Program-made: the position numbers and the translations under genes
The notes under the pieces: generated by a model
What the model saw: only the letters and a program-made list of their open reading frames with translations
Database searches by the model: none
What the model was told of the DNA's origin: nothing
Shown here: piece after piece, positions 1-47,516 of the stretch
How the letters are laid out: every line of letters starts with the position of its first letter
Position numbering within the stretch: position 1 is the first letter of the stretch
Source of the DNA: Hericium rajendrae
Taxonomy: Eukaryota > Basidiomycota > Agaricomycetes > Russulales > Hericiaceae
Length of the DNA stretch: 64,000 nucleotides
NCBI GenBank assembly: GCA_033439255.1
Contig: CM065881.1
Coordinates: forward strand, 682,001-746,000
Direction of reading: 5' to 3'

Positions 1-1172
1 TCCGCACCGTCGACAAGAAGCTCGCGGCCACGACGTGTGGCTAGGCACGGCCACACACCCCCACGGACAGCCCTAGTCAGCGCGTGCACGCACTCCCGCG
101 TGCGATCGTGCATGGTGACGAACGGCGTGCAAACCCGCACGAGGCCCTGACTGCGCGCGCATCCTCGCCACGGCCGCTGCACCTCGCTGGCGTAGTGCTC
201 GGCCTGCCGCGCCCTTTGCGCCCCTCGCATGCCCATCCGCGCACCCTCAACAGGCCCGGGCCCCCGCGCGACCCCCATCTCACGAGCTTTATGCTCCAGC
301 ACGCCCGCGCCCTCGGCACCACGCTCGCGGACACGACACGTGGCCGTGCGCGCGCGAATGGCCTCGTCAGCGCACGCACGCACTCCCGAACGCGCGCACG
401 GCGACGCACGGTCGCAAGTCCAAGCGAGATCCTAGCTGCACGCGCACGCCGCGAATGGCCTCTAGCGCGCGCATGCGCTCTTGCATGTGAATACGTGACG
501 GCGCCGGTCCCGCGAACGCGCGCTTGCCCCACAACGGCGCGCGGGGGCGCAGGCACGTCCGCGCCAGCATCCGCATGCAAGCTCGCGACCACGCAGTCCG
601 TAGAGTCCGCGCATGGTCACCAGCTTGCGCGCGGGCCTTGCACGACCTGCGCACCTCGCCCCGTACCGCGCATGACCTGTGCGCCGACGCTCCGCCCGCA
701 GACGGCGGCTCCGCCATGCGCACGGCCACGCACGATCGCGCCAACTCATGTTTGGCCATGCGCGACCGTGCGCATGCAATAACTAGCGATGCACAAGGTG
801 CGCGAGGGTGCGAGGTCCATTTGGGACCTTTCCTTACTAGTCTGCTAGATTTCGTAGCCACTTTGTCATAGTCTAGCCTTGAATATAGTACAATTTTGAT
901 TCAGTATCTTGTGTGCCTACTTGACTTATGATAGTGGTTATAGTAGCTATAGTACATGTAGCTTCCTTAAGTAAGTATGATAGTCCTATGTATGTGACAC
1001 TCCTGGCTATGAAGGCTATGTCACCCTATGTCTTTGACACTTCATGCTATGGGGACTACCATAGCTCCCATAGCCCTTCATAGCTGCATAGCTTAGCCAC
1101 ATAGCCTCTATAGCTTATCCATAGGACCCATAATAGCACTTGCTGCTATATAAATTTTCATTTTCTCAGATG
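1..1172 (+). mobile_element. TIR element copy A, right-hand part (cut by window edge)
   Basis: Bases 1 to about 830 are very GC-rich and built of degenerate CGCGCACG-type units. From about 840 the sequence turns AT-rich with many TAGCTATG/CATAGC words, and it ends in TTTTCTCAGATG at 1172. This is the same order of parts, and nearly the same terminal word, as the right half of the complete elements at 2990-5820 and 39471-42372, but the sequence is more diverged. The left half lies outside the window. No conserved ORF is seen; the long open frames in the GC-rich part exist in several frames on both strands and reflect composition. Confidence 0.65.
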
Positions 1173-1949
1173 TTGTACTGCCTGACGACTTGCTCTAGCA
1201 CTGGAGTAAGTGAGAAGCGGCTACTGACGCGGACGGGTTAACGCCTTCCCAAGGTGCAGCCGCAGCGTCGGGCATTATTTATGAATCTCGTCGAGGTGGT
1301 CGAATCAATATCGGCTACACGTGTCTCGCCGTTCACGACTAATACACACCACCGCCAGTACCATAAGGAAGGGACGTGGGACACAGGCGTGCCGGCCTAG
1401 TGCTCAGCCCAAGGATGTGCACCTATGCTTGTCCAGGCCAGGGCTTCCGCCGACGGCGCTTCCGTCTGCGTTGGTGTGATGCGTGCACATAAATCAGATG
1501 CGGAAGATATGCTATGATGTCCAGCACATCTATTTACAGTGTAATGGATTTAAAGCCCTTGCAAACAGGGGAATGTGCACAGGTCGCATGCTGGACACGC
1601 GGCATTCAGGCTTCATTGACGAAGCTCGGACAAGTGAAGAAAGTTCACCCACACAAAGTGTTAAGTATATGAAGGAATACAGGGCATGGAGTATCCATAT
1701 AACGAACAAAATGCGACATCATAGACACAAAACGAGGTGTGGATACATGTGCCATTGGACGAGGATACCGACAACGTACCACTGGGCCAGATTCTCGAAT
1801 TCACCATCTTTTAAATCACACAGCGCGTCAGCGTTAACGCTAACCGCTGGTTTCGTGTGACCGCCAGAGCCGAGATCCCTTGATGATGGATTTCTTTAAC
1901 CCTTTGACTTTCGAAAGGGATTTGAAGATATGACACTGCGAAGATGAAG
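1173..1949. other. Unassigned stretch
   Basis: About 780 bases between TIR copy A and the end of the split gene at 1950. An open frame of 125 codons (1483-1860, plus) has no recognisable domain and no supporting splice context. I see no convincing gene, repeat or RNA here. Confidence 0.4.
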
Positions 1950-3519
1950 TCAAGGACAAGCTTCAAATCGAAAAGCGATGTCACTCACGCGTCCCCGGCT
2001 GCGTTGGGTACGACTCGGACCTGATTCTGACGGTCTATCAATATGATCTTCCTCTTGCACCGAAGATTTGCCACAGCACATAGCCTCCGCATGCGGACCT
2101 GGTGAATTCGCCAATGCCATGGAGTATCCCGGACCGACGTCTACGTTCGCTTCAGAAAGCTGATGGACTACGGAATCCATGCTGATCGAAGCCTGTACGG
2201 TACACAACGCCTCATTGCGCTGAACTTCCTCTACCATGCTCCCCGGGTACAAACGAGAGCTTGACACGCCTCTGGTAACAGAGGGCTCTGGCCGGTGAGT
2301 GAAAGATTGCGAGCCTCTCGTGCAGACACTACAATCGCATTCGTCATTGACGTCGGTGGCATCGCAGGGCTCCTGCTCAGCCTCGAAAATCATCGACGAC
2401 TGAATGGACCCCTCATATCTCGTGTTGTTCCGTAATTCTGAGCCAAGCGTATGTTGATCATGCAGTGATAATGCTGGTCCAGGAAGGGCAGCATCGAGGC
2501 GAGGATCGATGGCAGAGAAATGAGCATCTGCGAGGAAAGGAGGCCAGGCAAAAAGGGCAGGGCCGGAGAGTGAGAAAGCAGGATTGGAAGGCACAGCAGC
2601 GAACGGCAGCACAGCCGTAGGGATGTTCGAAGGATGGGGTTCCTGTGGATCAATGGCCAGCCTCCAAGAATCGGACGATCCGGCACTGCTACGGAAGGAG
2701 TCGACTTCGGCAGATAAGGAAAATGGCTGAGAAGGAGTCTGGGCTGACGAAGGCGGCGACAAAGGATAGGAAGGCCTTATACTCGAGAACTGTGGTGAAA
2801 TAAATTGAAGACAGATACGCAAGCGTAGGCAAGCCAACACTCACCAGGCCTTCCATGGCAGCCAGTGAAGTGGACGACATGGGCTCAAACTACGGGCCCA
2901 AAGCTCTCATCAGATGAAATATTGACGTCCTTATCGACTCGGCGCACCTGAAAGCCAGCCAGCGTGTAATTCTCACCCACCACACCCGCCATCTGAAAAA
3001 TTTGCCAGTGATACATAGCTCTATAAAGTCTACATAGATCTCCTAGCTTCATAGTATCGCCCTTTATTGTATAGCCCACATAGCCAAAGGGTGATGCTAT
3101 GTAGTACTATGAGGCTCAAAGGTGATGCTATGGAGTGCTATGGAGTGCTATCATAACTATGAGAGCTGACTATGTAACTATGATAGTATGACTAGCTATG
3201 AAAGCTATCAGTATCTATTAAAGCTATAAGGCTTATGTGTCTTACATATCTTATATTCAATATGTGTCTCACATAACCTATACATAATATATGTCTCATA
3301 TATCCTACATTCAATATGTGTCTCATATATTTTATATTTTATATGTAGACCTGATATATATATTAAAGCAAGAAAATTTATTAGAACTTTAAATCTTTTC
3401 TACAATTATATCAAAATTAATAACATATGATCACACAGATATAAAGTATTTCAATGCATCAAGATTATATTGATATAATACAAACACTACTACTAACTAA
3501 AAAGCAAAAATATAAGTAA

Positions 3520-3650
3520 GAAAATATAAGATAAGATAAGATAATGCAAGAAGATAAGATAAGAATATAAGATAAGATAAGATAAGAATATAAGATAAGA
3601 TAAGATAAGTAAAAGAATATAAAAAACTAAGAAAAGATAAGAAAAAGTGA
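3520..3650. repeat. GATAA microsatellite in TIR element B
   Basis: Runs of GATAA/AGATA units separated by AATATAA. The matching stretch in copy C (about 40015-40150) has the same unit but different copy numbers, as expected for replication slippage. Confidence 0.75.
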
Positions 3651-3805
3651 GTCTTAGAAGATAAAGATAACACATAAGAACTTACCAAAGTAACAAAAAG
3701 CGAAAATCTCAAAAACTAACTTAAAGACATTAGTATTAGTATAAGCAATAAGAGATCAACAATTAAAACATTACCTTAGAGATAACAAACGAGCAAGAAG
3801 TAACA

Positions 3806-3880
3806 ACGAGCGAGCAAGCAACAGCGACGAGCGAGCAAGCAACAGCGACGAGCGAGCAAGCAACAGCGACGAGCGAGCAA
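3806..3880. repeat. 21-bp tandem repeat in TIR element B
   Basis: Three near-identical units of CGAGCGAGCAAGCAACAGCGA in a row plus a partial unit. Copy C has the region (about 40324-40380) with more divergent units. Confidence 0.75.
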
Positions 3881-3957
3881 AGAACGTCGACGAAGGCATT
3901 GACGTCGCAAGAGACAGTGGGGGTTAAAGAGCAAGAGGGAACGCGCAATCGCGCGAG

Positions 3958-3966
3958 CTTTATATA
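3958..3966 (-). promoter_or_regulatory. TATA box inside TIR element B
   Basis: The minus strand reads TATATAAAG directly beside hairpin 1. The identical box is at 40455-40463 in copy C. Downstream on the minus strand lie candidate 5' splice sites (GTAATG, GTAAGT). The reading frame across the box differs between copies by an indel, which favours a promoter of a non-coding transcript over a coding exon. Confidence 0.45.
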
Positions 3967-3967
3967 G

Positions 3968-3991
3968 GAATCCCGGGCAAAGCCGGGATTC
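3968..3991. repeat. Hairpin 1 of TIR element B
   Basis: GAATCCCGG and CCGGGATTC form a 9-bp perfect stem around a short loop. It is conserved in copy C at 40465-40488 with one loop change. Confidence 0.7.
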
Positions 3992-4399
3992 GCGGCTGCC
4001 GGGCGCTTGCCGAGCGTCGCGTCGAGACTGGGCGCCAGACTTCACTAGACGGACTTGGCTCCCTGTGAACTTCACGTACAGTAGATACTTATAACGCTCA
4101 TTCGTTCGTATTTTATATACAATTTATAGCTATCTAGTTTTTCTCTGAATTTATGTGATTTTATTTGATTTGTAGTGGCTCGAGGAACGTACCTTCGCTC
4201 GTTCGGTGGCTGAAGCACCGAAACGCGCGTCGAAGTTCATTTCCCTCCCTGTCCCTACCACCTTCACTGTCCTCCCTCCACTCTCCACCCTTCTTCTCTT
4301 CCTCTGATTCGTCGAACCGCATGCCGGAGGGACTCAGTAGGATGCAGAGGGCCTCGAAGGTGAGTAAAAAAAACTTTTATTTCGTTTATTCATGCTAAC

Positions 4400-4435
4400 G
4401 TCGAGAGTATCGCTCGTTCGAGCGATACTCTCGAC
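4400..4435. repeat. Hairpin 2 of TIR element B, perfect 17-bp stem
   Basis: GTCGAGAGTATCGCTCG, a TT spacer, then the exact reverse complement: a 36-bp inverted repeat. It is identical in copy C (40895-40930) although the flanking sequence differs between copies, which suggests selection on the structure or very recent spread. Confidence 0.85.
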
Positions 4436-6170
4436 TTATTCCGTCCTCCCGCGCCCCCATCCCCCTCGCCTCCGACTGCCGCCCCTCTCGCATCACCTTG
4501 CACTCCACCGACCTCGCCGCCTTGCCGTCACGTCGCTAGCGCCCGGCGCGCCGCCTCCAGCGACCACGATCAGCAGAGTGCGCCCGATCGTCCACGACCC
4601 GGGACGGGCACACCAGCACACGCACGTCGCGCGTGGTCCTTCCATCCGCGCGACCATCTACGCCATCGCGCCTCGCGCGCACGCCTGCCGCGCTGCGCAC
4701 GGGCCCGCGGCAGCCTGGCGTCTCGGGCACGTCCCTCGTCCCTCGCGCATGGACCAGCCGCCCGCCGCGCCTCGCGCACGCTGCCCAGTACCCCGCGCAT
4801 GTTGCCCAGTGCCTCGCGCACGGGCCCGCCGCCGTGTCTCGCGCACGCAGGTCTGACGCGTCGCGCACGAGCCCGCGACAACCCAGCGCCTGCGTCGCGC
4901 ACGGGCCCGCCGACGCCTCATGGTCCCTCGCGCCTCGTGCGGATCCCTCGCGCCTCATGCGGATCCCTCGCGCCTCGCGCACGTCGTCCGTCCCTCACGC
5001 GTCGCCCGTCCCTCGCGCGTCGCCCGTCCCTCGCGCACGTCCGTCCCTCGCGCACGCCCGCCGTCCCTCGCGCACGCCCGGCGTCCCTCGCGCACGTCGC
5101 GCGTCCCTCGCACATGTCGCGCATCCCTCGCGCACGTCGCCCGCGCTCGCGCACGTCGCCCTCGCCTCGGACCCGTCACCAGCGCCTCGTGCCCTCGCCA
5201 ACGCCTCGCGCACGAACCCCGCGCCACGCGCACGAACCCCGCGCCATGCGCACGAACCCCACGTTCCGCATTTCCCGCGTGCAGGCCCGCCCTATTGTGC
5301 GCCGGCCCCACAGCATGCGCGCTCCCGCGCACGGGTCGCGAGCTTCGCGCGCGCCGTTGCACCTCCCATGCAGCATCGCGCGCACCAGCTGCACCCTTGT
5401 GTGCGTGCACGCCTTGTCATCTTGCGAGCGCGCATGTAATGTAGTATACTTGACTGTAGTAGTAGTTAAATATAATTTAGTTTGATCTGTTTCAAATATA
5501 TTATGCTCGAAATCATAGTCTCTACATCAACTATAGATATTATAGCAACCTGAGAGTCCATAGTAACCTTGGAAGTTCTGTATGGAACATAGTATCTATA
5601 GGATACATAGAGGGAGACTAAAAACACATAAGTTACATAGCAGGCATAGTAGTGTCCTATCACTATGTAATACTATATACCCCTCACCCATGACTATGAT
5701 AGCTATGATAGCTACCATAGTCCTGTATAGCTGTGTAGCCCAACTACATAGCAGCCATAGCACTATGCAACCAGGAATAGCATTGGCTGGCAGCTATGTA
5801 GATTTCAGATTTTTCAGATGACTGCGTCCCGCCGTGCGGGAAACTTTCTGGATCGGGCCAATTCCCGTCGAACCATCACTTCTGCGCCGTTTGGACTGGA
5901 TTGATGGCGAACCTAAGTCGGGGCCACCCTCAACAGGATTCGTATCAGGACCCATGCCAAAGGGAGAGGCTCGAAAGTATGTTGCGAGATGAGGGAAGTC
6001 TTACTTGCACTGTGAGGGCTGGGGAGGGACGGTAGTCGGCTATGATTGGGAGTTGACTCCTACGTTCGCAGAATTTATCTGCGAAACGACAAAGAACCGT
6101 TTCTGCCTTCGTATGTTGAGTGGCGGGAAAACACGCACCTATGGCAATAGCTATTGCCAGCCTAAACAAA

Positions 6171-8063: not shown

Positions 8064-8306
8064 GTGGTCGCAGTTGCGATGCAGGACGGCAGTGCGGGAC
8101 ATTTGAGCGCGCGGGACGCGGAGCATGTCAAGGCGCGGGACATGGCTTTTGCTGAGAGACATGCGGAACTATGGTGGATCGACCGACAGCATCGGGCATT
8201 AGATAAGTGTGATGTACGTAGAGTAGCATGTATGGGCGAATTTGAGAGGCAATTAGCAAAGCGCGAGCTGTATTTAAGAGAGGAACGTAGTAAATCGAAA
8301 GGGGTA
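8064..8306 (+). pseudogene. Isolated coiled-coil-like exon
   Basis: An open stretch of about 80 codons rich in Arg, Glu, Ala and Asp, with repeated A-R-D-M/A-R-D-A words, ends at a good donor (GTAAGT at 8307). A second plus-strand segment with similar composition lies at about 9360-9560. The sequence between them reads better on the minus strand, as though something had been inserted. No intact gene can be built. Low confidence that this is a functional exon. Confidence 0.3.
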
Positions 8307-8367: not shown

Positions 8368-9190
8368 CTATGTAGACATACTGTCAGAAACAAGTACACT
8401 ATTAAGTAATTGAGGACGACACCTGCAGTATGGTATGAGCTGCGGACCGTATACGCGATCGAAATCAAGACAATGCACAAAACTTTGCTGTGGAGGCCAT
8501 TGACAGGAGGTAATCAACGACGGCTGCCAGAGCTTGTCGTTCGCTTTGCAGGCGAAGTGCCCGGCGCGTTGAGCAACGGGTAATAGACAAGGACCCTTTT
8601 CTTCAGCGAGGCAATGTGTCCTAGCCGGCGCAACGACATGAAGGGTCAATAAATATGTGGCATAGATGTCGGAGTCCGGGCTGGTGTCACGGCTGGAGAT
8701 GCGCCAATGAGTGACGGTGAAGTGCACATCAACAGGAGTGCCCGGCAAGGACCAGTAATCGGATGGCTTCATGAGATTGCCATTCAAACCGTATACAGAG
8801 AAGGGATTGATGCCATGCGTCAGCTTCAGCGGCTCGTGGCGAGCGGCATCAGACCAGACGGGTCAGTTTTGGATGGCAGAGCTATCTCCAAATTCTGTCG
8901 GAGAGTGGGTCAGTATGGATGGTATGTAAATGTGTTGAAGACCATACCCTTTGGGTCGTCGTGATTGGTAACGGTGGCGTCGAGGGCAACTTCCAGAGCC
9001 TTTTGGAGGAACAGTTAGCAGAGTCAGCTGCAGAACACAAAACGGAGCTGAAACGCATGTTTAAAAAAAGGGACGTATGACGAATCTTCGACCAACAGCC
9101 ATGATCATCCAGTAATAGTCTCTCTTGATGTAGCCAGGCAATGCGACCATCAGGCACAGAAAAAGGCACACTACTGTCCGACGCCAAGAG
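8368..9190 (-). pseudogene. Uncharacterised gene, probably degenerate
   Basis: Three minus-strand segments look coding: about 9187-9070 (contains PFSVPDGRIAWLHQERLLL), about 9000-8900 (contains EVALDATVTNHDDPKG) and about 8835-8370 (contains LTHGINPFSVYGLNGNL and GTPVDVHFTVTHWRI). Plausible GT..AG junctions separate the first two. Between the second and third a stop and frame change remain that I could not resolve with an intron. The family is not recognised. Either there is an exon I misplaced or a frameshift has killed it. Confidence 0.4.
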
Positions 9191-34929: not shown

Positions 34930-36650
34930 TCCACTGCCATGGATGGCGCTGACACCTTGGCCCTGACAGCGCTGCTGAGTCCTTACCGAACTCCACACTC
35001 GATAACACATGACACCCCGCACCACCATCGCTAACATGAAGGTGAGCGCGCCCTGATCTCCGCCTTCGCGTGATCCCCCTCTAGCCCTCAGCTGTGCTCG
35101 GCCTTCAAATACCTCGATGCACGTCCACCCTGCCGCCCCTTCAAGACCAATCTGCGATTCGACGCGCTTCTCCAGAAGGCACTCTCCATGGGCCGGCGAC
35201 TCGGTGATCACAACAAGCGGTTGGGTGTTGCGTACCCTCCGGGGGATCACCACTCCAGCGACAAGGAGTCAGAAGCTCCGGTCGGAGCGTGGTCACCTAC
35301 CAGTCTCTCCCCAATCTCCACACCCGCGTCTAGTCCTAGGATGCTTCCTGAGGAGGACAGAGCACTCAGCGACGACGTGCCGGCACTCGAAGATGGCGAC
35401 GCGGCTGCTGGTGACGGCGATAGCGAGGCCTCGATTCCGACCCACGACTCGACTGGCGCTTTGAGAAAACCCAGCCGGAAGAGGAAACGGAAGCAGGAGA
35501 AGCGCCGCGCGATGGCAGGCTACACCAGATTAGTATGCGCCGCCAAAACAGCATGCACCCCCACCAGGAGCCGACCACGATCAACATCTCTGACGTGGAC
35601 ACCGCGATGGACTACAAGATGATCAAAGAGGCCTACATGGTCCGGCGACTCAAGAACATGTTGTAGGTGCCATGGGAGCGATCTCAGTTCGAGGAGCGGG
35701 GCTTTCATCGCCTCGAGTGGGATGCAACGTCCTTCGTCCGGTCGTCCAGTAATCCTCCGTGCTCATCGCTGGTCGCACTAGAGAAATTTCACGATTCTTG
35801 ACAATGCGGAGCGTACCATCGCGGTCCTGTTGGGCAAGCCAGTGGAAAGGGCCGATCGCGAGCTGGATCAGACATGGGACAAGATGATTGAGAGGGTTTC
35901 GGCCTTGTTCGAGGAGAAGCGCGTTGATGAGGAGCGTCTCCTGACCCCGCATTAGAAGCAGCACCGGTGCGGGGTCTTTCATCGGAATTTCCTACGGTGG
36001 TGGGCGGAAGGTAAAAGGAATTGGCTCGCCATGTCCTTTCAACACTGACTGGCTCCCAGATTTCAGAAGATTTGCGTCATATCAAGAGTTGCATGCGGGG
36101 TTTTGACACCCTGCTCGGCCATGACGGTGTCCAGCGCATTGCTTAGCGGCAGAGCGGTAAGTCGCATCCCCATTCATATGGTCCGTTGGAGATGCTCATT
36201 GTAAATGCGATGGCTTCCTACTTCCCCAAAGTTTATGCTCACGTTTCAGAGTCCATGCCAGACTCAGCAAGTCACAGCCCAAACCTCGCTGAAATTTTCA
36301 CACAGCGTGTATTCCACCGTGACATCTAATTTCGGTCCCTCCACATCTGCCTTGATCATAACGACTGCGGCAACACGCCCAATGTGCCGCATGCTGTTAC
36401 CGCCCTTGTAATTTACCCAGACTAAGGTGGGGAGCTTTACTTTTGGGATCTGGCACTCTTGTATGCGCTTCCCTCCTGGCGCTACCATCCTCTCCTCGTC
36501 GGCCAGCATTCGCTACGGGAACCTGCCCACCCAGCCTGGCGAGAAGCGATACTCCATGACACAACTGCTCTGGGAGTCTGCTACGTTTGGGCTTCAGCCT
36601 GCGTCCTCGCTCATCGACCCATGTGTTGACACGCATCGAAGGTAAGCCTA
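34930..36650 (+). pseudogene. Decayed TET/JBP-like 2-oxoglutarate oxygenase gene
   Basis: Coding-like blocks lie in the family's order but in shifting frames with stops. There is a basic N-terminal region (KPSRKRKRKQEKRR, about 35470), then DNAERTIAVLLGKPVERAD (about 35795), GHDGVQRIA (about 36110), a block corresponding to NF-x-NSVFP-x-T as SVYSTVTSNFGPST (about 36300), the iron-binding HxD region as CLDHNDCGN (about 36340), GGELYFWDLAL (about 36430) and MRFPPGATILSSSASI followed by QPGEKRYSMTQ (about 36470-36560). From memory this order matches the fungal TET/JBP family, expanded in Agaricomycetes with transposons. The distal His before the GE-x-RYS motif reads Tyr (IRYGN). At least two frameshifts and several stops make a functional product impossible. 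Confidence 0.65.
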
Positions 36651-36928
36651 CCGCCCGTGTGTCTATCACCCGCTGGAGGAGGGTGCTGGGACGGCTGTCC
36701 AAGTACGAGGAACTCGATACTGATCGCAGATAGCTCCGTGACTGGGAGCGAGGTCGAGGATAAATATTGTCTGGATGACATTGACTGGACCTTAAACTAC
36801 ATAAATTCTTTGTACAAGATAAGATTCTATCGGTAGCAATGATAGGACAACGGGCGCTGGGCGGTATATTTGATGAGACAAGTATGTAAGCCGTACAGGC
36901 TGAGGGTGTATCGCAGATGTCTTATCTC

Positions 36929-37688
36929 GGCGCTCGAACAAGCGCTTAAACGTACATTCTCATGAGTCACCATATCGCTACTTGAACAGCGACATCGACG
37001 CCCAATAGATGCAAGACAGATGCAACTTAGATGCAACCTAGATGCAACTAGTATGCAGCTAGATTGCAGTGCAAGCTGCCAGTACCAGTGCATATACATT
37101 CTCACGACGAAGAGCTGGCTATGCCACCTAAATGCTTCACAGACGCAGCTAGGTTGCGACTGGTTGCGAGCCTCCCCAGCAAGAACAGCTGGCTCGCGAC
37201 GCCGCCGCTGCCGTTGACTGGCCTTCATGCTTTTCTCAACCTCAAGACAAGGCGTGAGCACATATATGGTTTTACATGCATTTCCAACCCAATCACCTCC
37301 GGTACGTTATCAAAACAACGATCTCGGCTTTTCCCCAGAAACTCACTTCCAGTTTCTGGACATCGTGGCCCGCGTTCCGTGAACGCGGAGAATAAATATC
37401 GAGATGTGGCACAATGCAGACCTTGGCCACCTCCCTCAACCGCCCTTCTACAGTTCGAGTTCCCTTCCTGATCCATTTCTGCCTCAATGAGTGTGAGCGT
37501 CTCTCTGTTGCCCTCACGCGCTCAGCCCACTTATCGCATCCTTAGCTCGTCAGTCGCGATCCTGGAGCCACATCTTCCTCATCGTCCGTCGCTCTCGACG
37601 CTCCCGACCATGCCCTTCGGTCGTCAGCCAGCCAGAATACCATTCGTAGCAGGACCCACAAAGTTACCTCAGACCCAGAAATGGTGAG
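36929..37688 (+). repeat. Duplicated 5' region and first exon, copy 2
   Basis: Partner of 17871-18630, gap-free. The distance from the repeat start to the ATG is 681 bases in both copies. It includes the ATGCAAC array at about 37010-37078. Confidence 0.85.
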
Positions 37689-38000
37689 TTCAACGCGGCA
37701 CCCTTACCTTGACATTTTAAGAGACATCATGAACAGAATGGAATCTTACGGGGCATGCTTAAAACAACACATCGCGTTCTGGGATCTCACGGTGCGACTT
37801 GCATAAGAGTTGCAGACGGCATCCAAGATTCTCGGAGGGATATCAATGGTTTTCGTCAGGATATCATTTCGTTGGAGATGACGATGCAGTTTATTTGGGG
37901 CATCTCCTACGGAGTGGCGTTTTCTGCTGCTGGGGGTCTGCTTTTCCTTGCATACTACCTTTTGGTTACGTTTGATCCTTCGTTTCTTTGCATGACTTGA
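37610..38000 (+). pseudogene. Paralog of the 18552 membrane protein, probable nonsense codon
   Basis: Exon 1 (37610-37683) again starts MPFGRQPARIPFVAGP and ends at GTGAGT. Exon 2 extends to 38000 and encodes GILRGMLKTTHRVLGSH, DINGFRQDIISLEM and a hydrophobic segment (GVAFSAAGGLLFLAYYLLV). Using the acceptor homologous to copy 1 (AG at 37722-37723), codon 25 becomes TGA where copy 1 has AGA. The nearby CAG at 37736 also gives TGA. Either the copy is dead, a different splice is used, or translation starts in exon 2. Exon 2 is well conserved at protein level (GFRQ, membrane helix), which argues for recent inactivation. Confidence 0.5.
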
Positions 38001-38424
38001 TCGGCATAGATATTTAGAACTGAGATGCGGGGAAGTGAGCACTGGGCAGGGCTGCGTGCTGCACGGGATCCCGCTGCCAAATCTGAGAAATACCATGCTG
38101 TACTATTAATTATAACACGACTAGTCGCCCTGTCGATCCATCGTTCAGCTGCTCGCCACGAGCCCACCACCGTTCATCCTGAAAGCGCTCCTACCGCAAC
38201 TTTCACTTATCAATTCGGCGGATACTGCATTATGGTGAATACGACCGGCCGATCGTCACGAGCGGGTCCGCGAGCTACATGTCTTCTGGCGGTAAGTGCC
38301 GCAGTAGAGTGAGCAATCAGATCGCAACGCTCGAAACAGAACATCCCTGTACCGTGCCATTGTTATCGAGTCCACTCGTCTTTCCTATACTTTGTTTCAT
38401 GGGATTCTAGGCTTGGATCTTGAC
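38001..38424. other. Tnp2 upstream region with a candidate element terminus
   Basis: CACTGGGC at 38040-38047 could be the left end of the Tnp2-bearing element; its inverse is at 51348-51355. No other CACTG occurs between here and the Tnp2 start. Confidence 0.3.
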
Positions 38425-40894
38425 ATGCCCACGAAACTCTGTCAATGCCACGCGAAAGGATGCATAGAGGAGTCGTCGACCAATCCCTCCAACGGGGAGT
38501 TAGTCACCGGATACTATTTGACGGATGGAAGATACAGAGAGCATCAACTGGCAGAAGCGATATGGAAGGCCGAACACGACAGGAGTAACATAGCACGTAT
38601 CATATTGGATACCACTCTCGAAGAAACTCCTGTCTCCGATGCCTCAATCACCAGGGACACAGGTGTAGGCGGCTCGCGTTCCGTTTCCAGAGGTGCGCGA
38701 TAGAGCTCTAATGACCATGCATGTGCTCACATGTTTCGGATAACAGGACCAACAGCAGATTTCCTGCGGGATCAACGAGCTTCTTCGCTGCATCCCGCCG
38801 GAGGCGGGCTACCTCCTAGTCATTCTTCTCTCCAAACCTCAGCAGCACACGGCAGTCATGGTGCGCGTCAGCAATCTCGATACAACACTTTGAGCTCATG
38901 TCCCATTTCTGAATTAGATGGAGCCAGACAGCGTACAGAGCGGCAAATGATCCTGGCAGAGCTGGAGCGATACGGGGATCAATTTCTGCGAAGCAAAGCC
39001 CACTTCAATTACCCCATCCTGCATTTCAAAACTCCACCATCCTCAGCTACAGATCCTGTTCCGCGAATGTCAGCTACTTCGCAGCTACGAGAAGCTAATA
39101 GGAGCTATCTGGGTCATCTAGACGAGGTGACAGGCCTACGGAGTCTTGTCCAACGGGTGGGAGAGCACCACAGTGGTCAAGCAGCGGATATCCGACAGGA
39201 TCTGTTGCAGCAATTGTCCGAACACATGGATTACTTAGAGGGGTTAGTGAACGATGCTTGGTATCGGAAGAAGCTGGAGCTTGGTTTTATTCTGCCTCAG
39301 TCCGAACCGTTGCCAAGGATAGAGGAGACGGGTACGTAATCACACCTAGCATTTTTGGTTTGACTAGAGTCTAAATAAATTGCATTTTAGCCGTCCTACC
39401 CGGAAGTACGAGGCTAGATTCTCCCATCCCAGTTCTTCTTTCAGCATTTACAGCTTTGGTCATGGCTCTTCATCTGAAAAATTTGCCAGTGGTACATAGC
39501 TCTATAAAGTCTACATAGATCTCCTAGCTTCATAGTATCGCCCTTTATTGTATAGCCCACATAGCCAAAGGGAGATGCTATGTAGTGCTATGAAGCTCAA
39601 AGGTGATGCTATGGAGTGCTATGGAGTGCTATCATAGCTATGAGAGCTATGAGAGCTGACTATGTAGCTATGATAGTATGACTAGCTATGAAAGCTATCA
39701 GTGTCTATTAAAGCTATAAGGCTTATATATCTTACATATCCTATATCCAATATGTGTCTCACATATTCTATGTATAATATATGTTTCATATATCTTATAT
39801 TCAATATGTGTCTCACATATCTTATATTTAATATGTAGGCCTGCTATATATATTACAGCAAATCAATCTATCAGATCTGTAAATCTTTTTTTATAGTTAT
39901 ATTAGAATTAATAACATAAGATCACACAAATAAAAAGTATCTTAATGCATCAAGATTATATTGATATTATAAACACTACTACTAACTAACAAGTAAACAT
40001 ATAAGTGAGAGAACATAAGATAAGATAAGTAAGATAAGATAAGTGAGAGAACATAAGATAAGATAAATAAGATAAGATAAGTAAAAGAATATAAAGATAA
40101 GTAAAAGAATATAAAAAAATAAGTAAAAGAATATAAAAAAATAAGTAAGAAAAGATAAGAAAACATTAGTCTTAGAAGATAAAGGAAAGAAACATAAAAA
40201 CTTACCAAAGTAACAAAAAGCGAAATCTAAAAAACTAACTTGAGAACATTTGCATTAGTATAAGCAATAAGAGATCAACAATTAAAAGATTACCTTAGAG
40301 ATAACAAACGAGCAAGAAATAACAGCGAGCGAGCAAGGAACAGTGACGAGCGAGCAAGAAACAACGACGAGCGAGCAAAGAACGTCGACGAAGGCGTCGA
40401 CATGGCAAGAGATAGTGGGGGTTAAAGAGCAAGAGGCAACGCGTGTCGCGCGAGCTTTATATAGGAATCCCGGGCGAAGCCGGGATTCGTGGCTGCCGGG
40501 CGCTTGCCGAGCGTCGCGTCGAGACTGGGCGCCAGACTTCACTAAATGGACTTGGCTCGCTGTGAGCTTCATGTACAGTAGATACTTATCTTTCTCATTC
40601 ATTTGAATTGTATATACAATTTGTAGTTACTTCGTTTTTCTCTCAATTTATGTGATTTTTCCTGATTTGTAGTGGCTCGAGGAACGTAGCTTCGCTCGTT
40701 CGGTGGCTCAAGCACCGAAACGCGCGTCGAAGTTCGTCTCTCGCTGTCTCCACCACATCCACTCTCCACTCTCGTCCCTCCACCCTCCTACTCTCCCTCT
40801 GACTCGTCGAACCGCATGCCGGAGGGACTCAGGCAGATGTAGAGGGCCTCGAAGGTGAGTAACAGATACTTCTATTTCGTTTATTCGTGCTAAC

Positions 40895-40930
40895 GTCGAG
40901 AGTATCGCTCGTTCGAGCGATACTCTCGAC
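40895..40930. repeat. Hairpin 2 of TIR element C
   Basis: 36-bp inverted repeat identical to 4400-4435 in copy B. Confidence 0.85.
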
Positions 40931-40939
40931 TTCTTTCGT

Positions 40940-41990
40940 CCTTCCGCGCCCCCACTCCCCCTCGCATCCTACTGCCATCCCTCCTGCATCACCCCACGCT
41001 CCTTCGACCTCGCCGCCTTGCCACCACGTCACTAGCGCCCGGCGCGCCGCCTCCAACGACCACAACGACCACTGCGACCCGGGACGGGCATGCCAGCGCA
41101 CGCGCATCTTGCGTCGCGCGTGGCTCTGTCCGCCCGCGCGACTGCCCAGTCCGCCCGCGTGATCGCCCAGTCCACCCGCACGACCGCCCACGGCGATCGT
41201 GCCTCGCGCGCAGGCCTGCGCGTTACGCACGGGCCCGCGGTAACCTAGGGACTCGCGCACGGGCCCGCGACAGCCTGGCGCTCGCGCACGTCCCCTGTCC
41301 CTCGCGCACGCTGCCCAATGCCCCGCGCATGTCGCCCAGTGCCTCGCGCACGGGCCCGCCGCCGTGTCTCGCGCACGCAGGCCTGACGTGTCGCGCACGA
41401 GCCCGCGAGAACCCAGCGCCTCGCGCACGGACCCGCGGCAGCCCGGCGCCTCGTGCACGCCTCGTGCCCAGGCCCGCTGCCGCCGACGCTTCGCGCACGC
41501 CCCCGCGTGCCTCGCGTCTCCCGCGTGCAGGTTGCCGCATCGCGCGCGGGCCCGCCGACGCCAACGCCTCGTGCGGGTCCCTCGTGCCTCGTGCACGTCG
41601 CCCATACCTCGCGCACGTCGCCCGCGCCTCGGCACGTCGCCCGCGCCTCGTGCACGTCGACCGCGCCTCGCGCACGTCGCCCGCGCCTCGCGCACGTCGC
41701 CCGCACCTCGTGCGGATCATCGTGCCTCGTGCGAGTCGCCCGCGCCTCGTGCAGGTCGCCTGCGCCTCGCCAACGGTCCCCGCGCCACGCTCACGAACCC
41801 CACGTTCCGCATCTCCTGCGCGCAGGTTTGCCGCATAGCGCAGGCCCGCCCTGTCATGCACGGGCCCCACGGCGTGCGCACTCTCGCGCACGGGTCCCGG
41901 GCTTCGCGCGCACCATTGCACCTCGCGTGCAGCATCGCGCACACCAGTCGCGCCCTTGCGCGTGCACGCCTTTCACACCTCGCGAGCATA
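40940..41990. repeat. GC-rich degenerate repeat zone of TIR element C
   Basis: Units such as CCTCGCGCACGTCGCC and CGCGCACGGGCCCGC recur irregularly. The corresponding zone in copy B is 4440-5430. All six frames are largely open, so the long predicted frames here (up to 288 codons) are composition artefacts. Confidence 0.75.
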
Positions 41991-44900
41991 CATGTAACTT
42001 AGCATACATGTAACTTAGTGTACTTAATTGTCGTAGTAGTTAAATATAATTTAGTTTGACCTGTTTTGAATATAGTATCGAAATCATAGACTCTACATCA
42101 ACTGTAGATAATTATAGCAGACTAAAGCTCTGTATGGAACATAGTATCTATAGGATACATAGAGGGAGACTAGAGATACATAAGTTACATAGCAGGCATA
42201 GCAATGTTCTATTACTATGTAATACTATGTACCCATCACCCATGACTATGATAGCTATGATAGCTACCATAGTCCTGTATAGCTGTGTGGCCCAACTACA
42301 TAGCAGCCATAGCACTATGGAACCAGACATAGCATTGGCTGGCAGCTATGTAGATTTCAGATTTTTCAGATGTTATAGTTGGTATCTCGCGCGATCATGC
42401 CAACTTTCTTCTGCGAGCAATTCAGATGGTCGTCATCGCCACATGTTCTTTCATTAAGTCTCTAGGGATCATCATCCCCGAAGCTCAGATCCATCAGCTG
42501 GCCTCGATGCCTACGGATATCCGAACTTTGTATAATTCTTTCAAACTGGAGGGTCGTAGCATCCGATATGCCTGCTGCAAACGGTGCTTCGCGTGCTATG
42601 CACCTCTATCGCTTGATAACCCAAGATATCCGGAACGTTGTAATTTCAAGCTTACGCCCGAGAGTGCGGAGTGCGGTGCGGAGCTACTCCATGCGAAGGA
42701 GAAAGGTGGCGGTAAAATCCCGTTCCGAGAATTCGTCTATCAACCTGTCTTGTCGTGGATTGCCTCCCTCCTTTCTCGTGATGGTATAGAGGACTGCCTA
42801 ATTACAAGCCCCAAACACACACCACCAGGGGGCCGAGAGGACGATATCTGGGATGGAAGCGCATTTGCTTCCTTCAAAGGTCCGGATGGACGATCATTTT
42901 TTAAGGCTCCAAAAGGCGAATGCCGTCTGGTGTTCAGCCTTTTTGTGGACTGGTTCAACCCATTTGGGAACCGTGCCTCTAGCACGAAATCATCCATTGG
43001 CGCTATATACATGATCTGTCTAAACCTTCCCCCCCACATGCGATACAAGATGGAGAATGTGTATCTCGTTGGAATCATTCCCGGCCCCTCCGAGCCGAAG
43101 GTTGACGAACTCAACCATCTTATCAAACCTCTCGTCGATGATATGCTGGAACTATGGAAACCTGGAGTGTTGATAAGGCGAACGGCAAAGTACCCCAACG
43201 GTTGTATGTCACGAGCAGCCATAATTCCCCTAATCTGTGACCTGCCAGCTCTTCGGAAGACGGCCGGTTTCATGGGTCACAGTGGACATCATTTTTGCTC
43301 TTGCTGTAAGTTGCAGAAGGAGCATATTGCAAATGTCGATTATCGCACTTGGCCGAAGAGGACATGGGAAGAGCACCTCAACCTGGCTATCCAGTATAGA
43401 GATGCACCATCGGAGGGCGATCGGGCTACCTTGTTCAAAGCGCATGGCATACGATGGTCAGAGCTCCTGAGGCTTTCTTATTGGGATGTTATCAAATATT
43501 CAGTCGTCGACTCAATGCACAACCTCTTCCTTGGTGACCTTCATAGACATTGCTCCGATATCTGGCATATGTCTCCGAAAGAGGAACACCTCCCAGAGAA
43601 GATACCACTGCACTCACCGGAAGAGCAGACGAAGTGGATTGAAGTGACTAGAAATGCTGTACAGACGCAAAACAGGACGCTCTTGATGAAAGCACGTCAT
43701 GGCTACCTACTAGCGCTTGCCAGAGCTTGCAGTGTGCCCCTCGAGAGTGAGGTGCCCTATAAAAATGACATTGCCGACGCCCTGATGAATTGGGTTCGTT
43801 CTTGTTTTTCTTGCCGTTCCTCCTTCGCCGAGCTGACCATTACATCGATAGAGAGAATCCCATCCACACGCGCAAATCGTCCAGCTCGTTGCGCACCCGT
43901 TTCCAGTTTCCGATTTTTCCCGCCCTTACCAAAGTAAGAAGGACGTGGTTCTGGATGGGCCAATTCTAAAAGAAATATGGGCGGATATCACTGAGACCAT
44001 TCTGCCTTCGTGGATGGGCCGTGCTCCCAAGCACCTTGGTAAACCCGGCCAGGGTAGACTTAAAGCAGATCAGTGGAGGACTGCTTGTATGGTCCACTTG
44101 CCCATCACTCTCATCCGGTTATGGGGTCGCGTTGAAGCCACAGTTCGAGAAAAAAATTTGCTGAATAACTTCCTGTATCTAGTTATCGCCGTGCGGTGGG
44201 CCACAATGCGCTCGACATCCCAAAACCATCGGACTATTATACAGGAAAATCTCTATCGCTACCTCACTACTGCAATAGAACTGTTCGGAAAGGAGATCCT
44301 CGTCGTCAACCACCATATGTTGCTCCATCTAGTCGATTGTTTGCAGCTTTTCGGACCCGTTCATGGATGGTGGGCATTTCCTTTTGAGAGGTATAATGGC
44401 ATCATGCAATGGTTCAAGACAAACAACAAAATAGGTAATTGCCTTGTCCTTTACCCTTATTATTATGCTCACAAAGCCTCAGGCCAATTGGAGTTCACCT
44501 TCTTCGATAGCTTTACCCGAGCGGCCAACTTCCGAGCCCTTATGAACAGTCACGGCGTCAGCACTCTATTAGGGAACTTTCAGCGATTATTCGAGACATT
44601 TTTTGGCACTTACTTCCATGGCCCTGTCATGAGCGACATCCTCGCGATGCGAATGGAAGCTGGCCCTGGCCCGGACACCAGCGGTCTTGACGTAACCTTC
44701 ATTAAAGAGCATGCAAGGCCGCTGGATACCACTATTTACCAGGCCTTGATCGATCATCTGAACCACGACGCCCCATTGTGCCGCTTTGCTGCGGTCCATA
44801 GTGGTACTGATCTTACGGAATTGGAGCCCGTTGGACAATTTTGTTCGAAGGTGACTATCAAAGGGGTTTCGTACGAACCGACAAGGAGCTCCAAAGGTGA

Positions 44901-45249
44901 CAGTCTCATCCTTTATCGCCCCGTCGGCCAACATTATCATCTTCCTGCTGTAATCGAAGACATATTCGTTCATCGCCATCCCGATCTCAACAAGCAGACC
45001 ATTTCCGATGTCTTCCTGGCAATTAAACCCTTCCTTCAGCTTTCACAAGATGAAGCCCGGAGCGACCCTTACAGACAGTTCCCTCTCCTTGGCGCTATGC
45101 TCTATAGCAGATCCCTTGAACAGGCTACAATTATCGTCAAGGCTTCTCAAATTGATAGCCATTTCGCTTCGTGCCCCTACCGCGACAACCCATGTCACCA
45201 AGTAGTGCTATCTCTCTGTAGGGTGGGTCCGACACGCCGATCTCGTTAA

Positions 45250-47516
45250 TGCTCACACTCATTGCGGCTTAGGACTAATGCATGCGACACGATAGAGGTT
45301 CGGCAGTGTGCATACAAGTTGCTTTTCCGAGGGATTCGGTAGCTGGGCTATGTATATGCTCGTCGAGGGACACGCTGTCGATCTCAATTTGCATGAGCGG
45401 TTGATGAACGGAGTCCGTCACCATGAAATTACTTATAACATCCATGAGTTAGAGCGAATGGTCCTATAGTTCACGGTTATCAGATATCTCAGCTCATACT
45501 CATCGGCACGAAGATCAGACGCAAGATTCTGATGAGCTAAGCGTTCATTGAAAAGCTCGGTATTCAGTGGAAACGACTTTGAATATGCATGTACTCAGCT
45601 GATACGCAATGCCTCTCTAGCCGATTCAGTGCGACTGCTGTGGGTACGTTCGTAATAATGCGGTGAAAAGGACGAAAAGCATGGATACTACAAGATGGAT
45701 AGGCTAGCTAATCTAACAGTCAAATCCATCCAACGACGACGGGAAAAAAACGAAGAGGACATCATATCCTCACTGCGCATTTCTAAAATGCCAAGCTGCA
45801 ATATTCAGACCAGTCAACAGGCCAGGAGATATCGACATCTGAGAAGCACAGCTCGGGCTCTTGGACGCGTCTAGTCAGCCCCGGGAGAGTCTAGAGTCTC
45901 TTCGAGACTTGGGACTACGTGCCTGGGTCTCTGCCACGAGATATTCGCATCTACGAGTGGGTGATAAAAGGATGCTTAATTGTTGACGTTAAGCATTTAC
46001 AGGACCAAGTCCATCGACAACTGCACGAAAGGCTTCCACTTCCATTATATATTATCAGTGCAAATACGCCAGCAAGAGGCGATCGGAATATGATGGCAAG
46101 GACCGTACCTATCTTGTTTCGTCAAGCTCTGCTTCAAGTTCAGCGACGGTCCAACATGACTTTCTCAGATGGACAGATCTTAGAAGCGGAGACGTTCTGT
46201 CCAAGGTTGACTTAGCCGAAGAAACTATGTCAAACGCGGAGGACGATGGCGAATTGAATTAAAGAGCCTCCAGTACTGCCCGCGGCCACGGCCGCACAAA
46301 AGGGCTAATTCTCATCTCACTCCGAGTCGCTTGCTCCGAGGTGGGACGGCAAGATTCTGCGGTTTATGTTGCCTAAATAAACTTTGTCATTGATTGTAGT
46401 AAGATTCACATTCTCTGACGAGTCATAATGCACCTTGGATGTGATGTGAGGAGGCTCTGCGGCGGGCCTTAGTTGCATGCGCTTTCTCGAGCCGCTTTGC
46501 TCGAGCCCTCAGTGCTTCTCTTCAAGTTCCAGTTCCTGAGTATGCTTGCGATCGACAGCTTTTTGAGCCAATGAGAAAGCCGACGCCGCCAAGGCAGCCT
46601 GGCTTATGCGCTTCGGACGATCCATGGGGTTCCGAATTCATGCTGTCACTTGCCTCCACTTGGAGGACCAGCTCATGGTGTCCAAACATAGCTGCCGCAG
46701 TAAACGTTGTAGGGAGAAATAACCAGTGGTACTCTAGTCCAGATTGGCAGATCGAAGATCGACAGGATGTAGAACAGGGTGTCGATGAGGGGGGACTGAA
46801 GACTTGGAAGAGTGAGCCTGCCATGAATGTTCCCAATCCGGGCCGGGCGGGAAACGGCCTGCCGGAGCCGAGCTCTTCGTTGGCGCGGCTTTGCAAACCG
46901 GGATAGCTTCTTATGTTACCACTATCACCACCCAGTCTAGATCTCCGAGTACGGCCTACATAGAAGATAGAATTAGTCGTTCTTCCTTCCTTCCTTCAAC
47001 GCCATGCAATAGACATGCTGTTCAAAGGCGCCAAGTATGCTGCTCCAATGCACTCAGGCACGCTGCTTCAATGCGCTCAGGTACGCACCAAGACTGTAGA
47101 GTTGCATATTGCAACGCTCCCAAATTTGAATTGCGTCGTCGTGGCATACTTGTCGCAAGTCGATTCAGAAGCTCGCGATTCTCCATAGAATCTGCTCGCC
47201 TCCGATAGTCAACGAATCCTATTAGCGGTTGCCTAGTGGTTACTGAGATTCTTTTTACAGCCTTATAATTATCCACCAGACTCAATTACCAGTGCGTTCT
47301 CCATGCGAGAGGTCCAAACGTTCACCATCCTGTTCGCTCCGGCATTGAACTAGGGTGACGTCATATTCCTTTGTTCGTTAGTGACTGATATCGGGGAAAG
47401 GCCTTTGTGGTCTTATTCTTCCATATAAATATCCGCCGTATGGATGCCTCTGGATATAGCTCCAAGGGTTTCTCGACCACCATCACTTCTCACCGTTACT
47501 TCTGTCCGCTCTCAAC
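45250..47516. other. Gene-free stretch between Tnp2 and the second gene
   Basis: Open frames up to 124 codons on both strands contradict each other. No splice-supported gene. A CGGCAGTG word at 45301-45308 resembles the MITE terminus, but no partner was found nearby. Confidence 0.4.

Follow-up and report, generated by a model that had tools for sequence, protein, structure and literature searches.

A locus in the basidiomycete Hericium rajendrae raises the question of what a mobile element that encodes no protein conserves between its ends. The window, that is, the whole stretch analysed, comprises 64,000 nucleotides of contig CM065881.1 (positions 682,001 to 746,000; G000:C4:682001-746000 in our numbering), and the genome searched with it comprises 46.8 Mb in 19 contigs. 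It holds two complete elements with terminal inverted repeats (TIRs), B and C, and part of a third, A, for which the original prediction, made from the letters alone, had described an AT-rich and a GC-rich half and no open reading frame. Our analysis firmly places B among hundreds of such non-autonomous transposons in this genome and points, at a probability that we put at about 0.68, to a conserved spliced non-coding transcription unit carried by these Plavaka/CACTA-like elements. The parts of B, in window positions, are:

2990 to 5820, plus strand: element B, a complete non-autonomous TIR element, one of 22 aligned full copies with common end points
2990 to 3001, plus strand: left terminal repeat CATCTGAAAAAT, with 375 exact genome sites versus 3 for the reversed pattern
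2990 to 3779, no strand: AT-rich left part
3005 to 3230, no strand: left subterminal CATAG/CTATG array, 12 motifs versus 1.8 expected in 2990-3240
3960 to 3967, plus strand: TATA box TTATATAG
3968 to 3991, plus strand: hairpin GAATCCCGG/CCGGGATTC right after the TATA box, read from the sequence; its stem is not unchanged in the subfamilies
4202 to 4222, plus strand: leader hairpin TTCGGTG-loop-CACCGAA, its pairing recognisable by eye in 6 of 8 aligned rows
4360 to 4407, plus strand: predicted 48-nt intron, GTGAGT ... CTAAC (4395-4399) ... AG
4400 to 4435, plus strand: perfect hairpin with 17-bp arms over the 3' splice site, showing co-variation
4440 to 5440, plus strand: GC-rich part, C-rich on the sense strand, with degenerate 20-nt repeats and no coding signal
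5441 to 5480, plus strand: conserved stretch that follows the GC-rich part, with similar sequence in C, L053, L054, L055 and L056 and a weak counterpart in L060 and L035; at a guess, a candidate 3' end signal
5580 to 5805, no strand: right subterminal CATAG/CTATG array, 12 motifs in the terminal 251 bp versus about 2 by chance
5809 to 5820, minus strand: right terminal repeat, CATCTGAAAAAT on the minus strand (ATTTTTCAGATG on the plus strand)

The evidence that carries this reading comes from a comparison of the core across six divergent lineages picked by their ends alone and scored for identity to B, together with a core alignment of eight elements in which islands of conservation stand within diverged sequence. 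The 5' splice site GGTGAGTA is the best-kept 8-base block of the core (98% identity; 2 of 712 comparison windows are as good, itself included), followed by the TATA box (94%; 14 of 712, itself included), the branch site CTAAC (93%) and the hairpin with its loop (81%; 3 of 690, itself included), whereas identity falls to 64% in the intron interior, 52% in the leader and 47% in the 57 nt past the hairpin. Each of the six sister lineages tested carries a one-directional gene-like unit whose signals were kept while the intervening sequence diverged; it consists of a TATA box, a leader, a short and fully signalled intron, a hairpin over the 3' splice site, and a C-rich, mostly 20-nt-periodic body. 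The TATA box and two hairpins (at 3960, 3968-3991 and 4400-4435) had been seen before, whereas the intron signals had been overlooked; these are complete and correctly spaced, as expected of a spliced non-coding RNA gene. Leader and module together fold better than shuffles (z -4.1), a value of which the hairpin alone must supply part.

The same signals recur throughout the genome. The intron pattern AGGTRAGTA-N(22-52)-CTAAY-N(3-20)-AGTNTCG has 320 matches, and 311 sites fit a second pattern, which combines the branch site and AG with a hairpin that has two pair positions left free; the reversed control of the former and the control of the latter have none. Sets chosen by pattern hold the fixed signals by construction, the pattern-independent tests being the six-lineage identities and the content of end pairs. 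Among the 100 hairpins listed of the 311, the first free position is paired in every one (A-T 74, G-C 16, C-G 10), and in 71 of the 71 distinct sequences, against a maximum of 50 in 2,000 shuffles. The second is C-G in 92, U-G in 4 and U-A in 4, and the next position loopward is less strict (G-C 77, G-U 8, A-U 3, A-C 12). The branch-to-AG spacing in the same 100 is 8 nt in 82, 6 nt in 17 and 7 nt in one, the 39 introns listed of 320 are 46-53 nt long, and the stretch between the fixed arm ends of the listed hairpins varies from 4 to 10 nt. When 21 modules were aligned, 89.6% of the cells of the 17-bp helix were paired, compared to 86.5% on re-dealt pair letters (reached in 0 of 500) and a maximum of 49.2% when slid; six pairs had changed on both sides (10 of 500 shuffles reach this) and the covariation score was reached by 1 of 500, with the three outermost pairs being unpaired in 9 of the 21. 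A covariance model built on signal-bearing sequences and run on 52 sources detected the module in the B-family loci covered that extend over the core; all signals are present in 39 of the 48 modules found (L029 and L030 being left out as duplicates of L027 and L023, and matches below 45 bits excluded), a fraction to be read in light of the signals in the model's own sequences. Within the B family (33 copies) the hairpin arms are kept at 0.97.

The module is tied to the element ends. On contigs C1-C3, an exact module lies 1.1-1.8 kb from one end in 17 of the 26 end pairs that are 2.3-3.7 kb apart and were chosen by their ends alone, and 68 of 112 module sites fall within 2.5 kb of an exact end, versus 6.4 (maximum 15) at random; the remaining 44 may lie in copies with changed ends, such as L061. 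That locus (1-3682; G000:C2:1810400-1814900) represents a related family with two modules facing outward from a central region, each followed by a C-rich body of the 20-nt type, the second having a poor hairpin. Several of its relatives stop at the same place, 3682, with the terminus CATCTGG, and a palindrome of about 36 bp, GTGGGAA..TTTTGCTGCAGCAAAA..TTCCCAC, occurs at 4-39 and 3236-3273, a similar palindrome lying around 1420-1460. Elsewhere, L035 has a tandem duplication of the intron-hairpin module (about 1915-2214; 150 bp, identical) whose second copy is without the 5' splice site, and L032 has three minus-strand modules (2346-2446, 8093-8192 and 8603-8704) flanking retroelement-like frames; no end that fits the TIR with at most one mismatch is present in that locus.

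The sharp change in G+C inside one unit that had been estimated by eye is borne out: the left 790 bp (2990-3779) have 27% G+C and 4440-5440 has 75%, with a CpG observed/expected ratio of 1.45. In all 34 modules examined out of the 48, mostly of the B family and followed for up to 900 nt past the hairpin, the body is C-rich on the sense strand (G+C 55-78%), and a lag of 20 is among the top five periods in 30 of the 34; on average it is the strongest period, followed by 40 and 60; the sequence of the repeat unit itself varies between subfamilies. Sister elements found by their ends (L035, L053-L056 and the L060 insert) keep the order of left end, AT-rich part, core, GC-rich part and right end; their flanks show target duplications of TG (L053), TA (L055), GT (L056), AA (L035) and TT (L060), with none at L054, which looks composite, with a second core inside. 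No match to Rfam was found in the window at the gathering score, nor within 2980-5830 up to an E-value of 1, and a search for transfer RNAs on bacterial settings found none.

B and C themselves are members of a superfamily of non-autonomous DNA transposons marked by CATC[T/A]GA[A/G]AAAT-type ends, 2-bp target duplications and CATAG/CTATG arrays. The further features of the window that belong here are:

39471 to 42372, plus strand: element C, a complete copy with a TT duplication
40855 to 40902, plus strand: predicted 48-nt intron of C
40895 to 40930, plus strand: hairpin over the 3' splice site of C
1 to 1172, plus strand: right-hand part of element A, of a sister subfamily, ending in TTTTCTCAGATG at 1161-1172; positions 1-500 have 70% G+C

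The three copies of the original prediction, A partial and B and C complete, are borne out to the exact coordinate, B and C having perfect 12-bp inverted ends (CATCTGAAAAAT/ATTTTTCAGATG) and 80% identity over their length by local alignment. A belongs to a sister subfamily with CATCTGAGAAAA, and a module of the kind described is found outside the window, some 400 bp to its left (G000:C4:681562-681598). Genome-wide, CATCTGAAAAAT has 176+199 exact sites (reversed control 0+3), CATCTGAGAAAT 118+132 (0+3) and CATCAGAAAAAT 65+48, or 113 in all (1+0). On C1-C3, where these three strings are completely listed and amount to 182 ends, there are 26 inward neighbouring pairs 2.3-3.7 kb apart, against a mean of 9.1 and a maximum of 19 in 2,000 orientation shuffles, and five outward pairs. 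The copies share end points across the genome, as the original prediction needed them to. Of 23 copies, 22 complete ones including B and C were aligned (L023 was dropped, having no usable pair); they measure 2,618-3,371 bp, and identity to B, over the positions at which both sequences have a base, is 75-98% for the other 21. Target duplications of 2 bp and varied sequence flank 19 of the 22 (about 1.4 expected by chance; none at B, L016 and L042), with no 3-bp match in any. An element inserted in a Plavaka gene at L060 has TT on both sides, and the relative L046 is without the insert; small differences at the joint make this empty site supportive only. The subterminal repeat first proposed, TAGCTATGA, turned out to occur only twice in B, the real unit being CATAG/CTATG, at 12 per 251 bp at each end. 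Its columns (with TATAG/CTATA also counted) are invariant across the 22 copies in 67 of 75 cases versus 74 of 151 elsewhere on the left (Fisher p 9e-10), and in 56 of 76 versus 59 of 150 on the right (p 1e-6). Motifs better preserved than the bases between them would be expected if a transposase or helper protein binds there, which is the case in CACTA elements (PMC2613891).

With respect to class, the CA..TG ends, the 2-bp duplication and the dense subterminal repeats, the last also a mark of CACTA/EnSpm elements, are CACTA/Plavaka-like; the earlier judgement that this is no standard CACTA derivative holds for the interior, which is unlike derivatives known to us. PlavakaB elements have CATCA..TGATG ends and 2-3-bp duplications, fungal EnSpm families have CAC..GTG ends and a 3-bp duplication, and Kyakuja and Zisupton have 7-bp and 8-bp duplications (PMC12730594). 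The elements found here share with PlavakaB the CATC..GATG ends, in part exactly CATCA, and the 2-bp duplications, in a genome with numerous Plavaka transposases (132 matched pieces, beside at least 172 of KDZ transposases), but are without a transposase and mostly have CATCT ends, as do B and C. Such a wealth of Plavaka and KDZ transposases, taken with the size of the intron, would fit a basidiomycete. Among the 26 end pairs, eight mix CATCAG with CATCTG and two have CATCAG at both ends, at least one such end thus occurring in 10. These mixed pairs, together with the PlavakaB-like ends and duplications, make a Plavaka-type transposase acting in trans the best candidate. The B-family copies, being without coding signal, do not encode the PF18759 transposase of PlavakaB; since the family is non-autonomous, its descent from Plavaka is unproven.

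Defective CACTA elements, which are mobilised by proteins supplied in trans, resemble the B family in their subterminal arrays, their lack of a transposase and, presumably, their mode of movement (PMC2613891). The CAC..GTG ends and 3-bp duplications of CACTA/EnSpm differ from the CATC ends and 2-bp duplications found here, and KDZ elements (Kyakuja, Zisupton) were ruled out by duplication length (2 bp versus 7-8 bp). Spm has a GC-rich control region; a C-rich body of 20-nt units and a hairpin at a splice site are not known to us from Spm/CACTA. Miniature inverted-repeat transposable elements are likewise non-autonomous, TIR-bearing and of high copy number, but are smaller than about 0.8 kb, in contrast to B-type elements, which measure 2.6-3.4 kb and hold a conserved gene-like unit. 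VANDALs, found in Arabidopsis, belong to a different, MULE-like superfamily. Like the B family, those with VANC target repeats have fast-evolving tandem repeats in the non-coding parts of a DNA transposon (PMC10398659), but are not known to us to have a conserved intron or hairpin. No description of this element or module was found in the literature, judged from titles and abstract openings, and a search with the exact string CATCTGAAAAAT gave no paper on this element, by title.

Several neighbouring genes and loci deserve mention. Right of C, two adjoining frames (42354-45249) have a match to Transposase_21 (E 4e-19) and one to DUF4218 below the cut-off, and form a CACTA/EnSpm-type gene. Since C, which has a TT duplication of its own, is complete at 42372 and the Transposase_21 domain begins only past that point, this gene was rejected as a part of C and is taken as a neighbour; a genome search with window positions 36000-48000 returned nearly only element copies and did not locate the ends of the gene, nor were end points found for the L059-type Plavaka. 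The sister element of L060 (2994-6373) lies in the 3' part of its Plavaka gene, and at most 200 bp separates the ends of two further elements, at C1:542170 and C4:1969872, from Plavaka matches. Beside another Plavaka gene, L048 has a 222-bp element (3227-3448) with CATCAGAAACCCTACAAACT ends and TG on both sides, like a short PlavakaB derivative. L059 has a 702-bp repeat (4779-5480), 98-99% identical in more than 30 places and probably the solo long terminal repeat of a young retroelement, and L058 has a perfect 556-bp inverted repeat (4547-6001) next to a Plavaka gene, with a mirror gene copy about 5 kb off that suggests a large palindrome.

How might such a unit work? A Plavaka/CACTA-type transposase from other elements would bind the ends and subterminal arrays and move the copies by cut and paste, while RNA polymerase II would transcribe the unit, the spliceosome would process the transcript into a non-coding RNA, and selection would maintain the whole. 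Its likeliest use, at a guess, would be to keep the element expressed or open to transposase, for example, through transcripts spliced efficiently enough to elude RNA-based silencing. Spliceosomes that stall can set off the production of small interfering RNAs in Cryptococcus neoformans (Dumesic et al., 2013, cited in PMC6643885), so that well-spliced introns may let a transposon mimic a host gene. Taken to its full extent, the proposal is that hundreds of protein-less transposons have their own RNA gene, with a TATA-driven spliced transcript, a co-varying hairpin and a C-rich body with a 20-nt beat, and that the RNA or its efficient splicing is the selfish function, e.g., evasion of splicing-coupled silencing; we advance this tentatively, at what we regard as clearly less than even odds.

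Several observations weigh against a conserved spliced unit. Its transcription and splicing, strongly suggested by the signals, are predictions from sequence. The branch-site block is equalled by 31 of 715 windows between lineages, itself included, and is thus weak evidence alone, and the six lineages are mutually related. Across the 33 B-family copies the splice signals are kept at 0.92 versus 0.87 for their surroundings, a level that 20-30% of random blocks equal, so that this comparison does not reveal selection on single non-autonomous copies; conservation is strong between subfamilies, and there could stem from autonomous ancestors. Hairpin substitutions in the B family display no preference for sense-strand G-U over A-C (11 versus 13), and thus do not separate an RNA hairpin from a DNA palindrome. 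The exact module is absent from 9 of the 26 end pairs, and B itself has no target duplication, its flanks being GC and AC. Finally, an autonomous partner is wanting: none of the 42 inward end pairs of up to 11 kb on C1-C3 has its own transposase among the matches listed, and the module is absent from seven Plavaka and three Transposase_21 loci (L045-L051, L057-L059), of which several extend only 1.5 kb past the gene.

The most serious competitor, which we rate as a real possibility short of an even chance, holds that these are ordinary deletion derivatives, whose TATA box, leader and intron derive from the 5' end of the transposase gene of an autonomous relative, as in defective Spm, selected in the parents and inherited by each subfamily. 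It would explain promoter and intron without any RNA function, fits the near-equal decay of splice signals and surroundings in the B family, and has a parallel in the mobilisation of defective CACTA elements by proteins in trans (PMC2613891). However, the absence of a listed transposase match from the 42 end pairs counts against it as well: the sole overlap is the Plavaka gene that hosts the L060 element, and the autonomous relative with a transposase between the same ends that had been anticipated was not found in a search that covered C1-C3 and a further set of end pairs. Among the latter, those 4.4-9.6 kb apart include no transposase of a matching kind: the L023 and L030 pairs enclose a Gypsy-like retroelement (gag-pol-like frames, judged by eye), the L029 insert is flanked by 821-bp direct repeats and has a 716-aa frame without a Pfam match, the L056 insert has a DDE_3 match below the Pfam cut-off, and those of L053-L055 have long GC-rich parts. 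Moreover, the sampled subfamilies have a GC-rich body in place of coding sequence, and the module is missing from the Plavaka loci over the extent of their sequence; CATAG arrays are missing there too.

Alternatively, hairpin and repeats might act as DNA, the former as a palindromic binding site of a transposase or anti-silencing protein and the latter as fast-turnover tandem sites for it, in the manner of VANC on VANDAL repeats, with the RNA being irrelevant. The lack of strand asymmetry among the wobble changes fits this, as do repeats that diverge as fast as VANDAL targets (PMC10398659); nevertheless, we consider it unlikely, as it leaves unexplained the 5' splice site, the branch site and a distance of 6 or 8 nt between the latter and the AG. 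Somewhat less likely again is a purely mutational origin of the near-perfect palindrome, whereby template switching between the arms would repair their match without selection. The arms do match in most copies (a stem of at least 9 in 43 of the 48 modules), and the stretch between the fixed arm ends varies from 4 to 10 nt; against this, the hairpin keeps its position over the 3' splice site in the aligned lineages, and its arms are among the best-kept stretches of the core.

That the GC-rich half encodes a low-complexity protein is very improbable. It does have open frames of up to 373 aa in B, and the longest frames across copies run to 195-376 aa; a 20-nt unit means that all frames would give similar peptides. 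However, in 21 of 22 copies the longest frame does not go beyond what 60 dinucleotide shuffles produce (that of L044 is longer than in any of the 60), 105 of 125 indels in this half are not multiples of three (nine pairwise comparisons that share B and are not independent), and no conserved ATG was seen in the leader alignment. Frames within shuffle range and frame-breaking indels establish that the GC-rich half is non-coding, as first supposed, and its turnover is fast, with divergence from B per site of 0.04-0.28 in nine copies versus 0.004-0.12 in the left part. The once-suggested fusion of two independent elements, for which the abrupt composition change speaks, is scarcely credible and not supported, as the parts are arranged alike in sister subfamilies whose ends are of other variants (L035, L053-L056, L060) and the 22 copies are continuous across both halves.

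Non-autonomous DNA transposons are commonly assumed to need little beyond their ends. If a conserved intron-bearing non-coding unit is indeed present in hundreds of these elements, it would show that elements of this type may have their own RNA functions under selection, and would offer a natural system, with hundreds of variants, for asking why a transposon preserves an intron.

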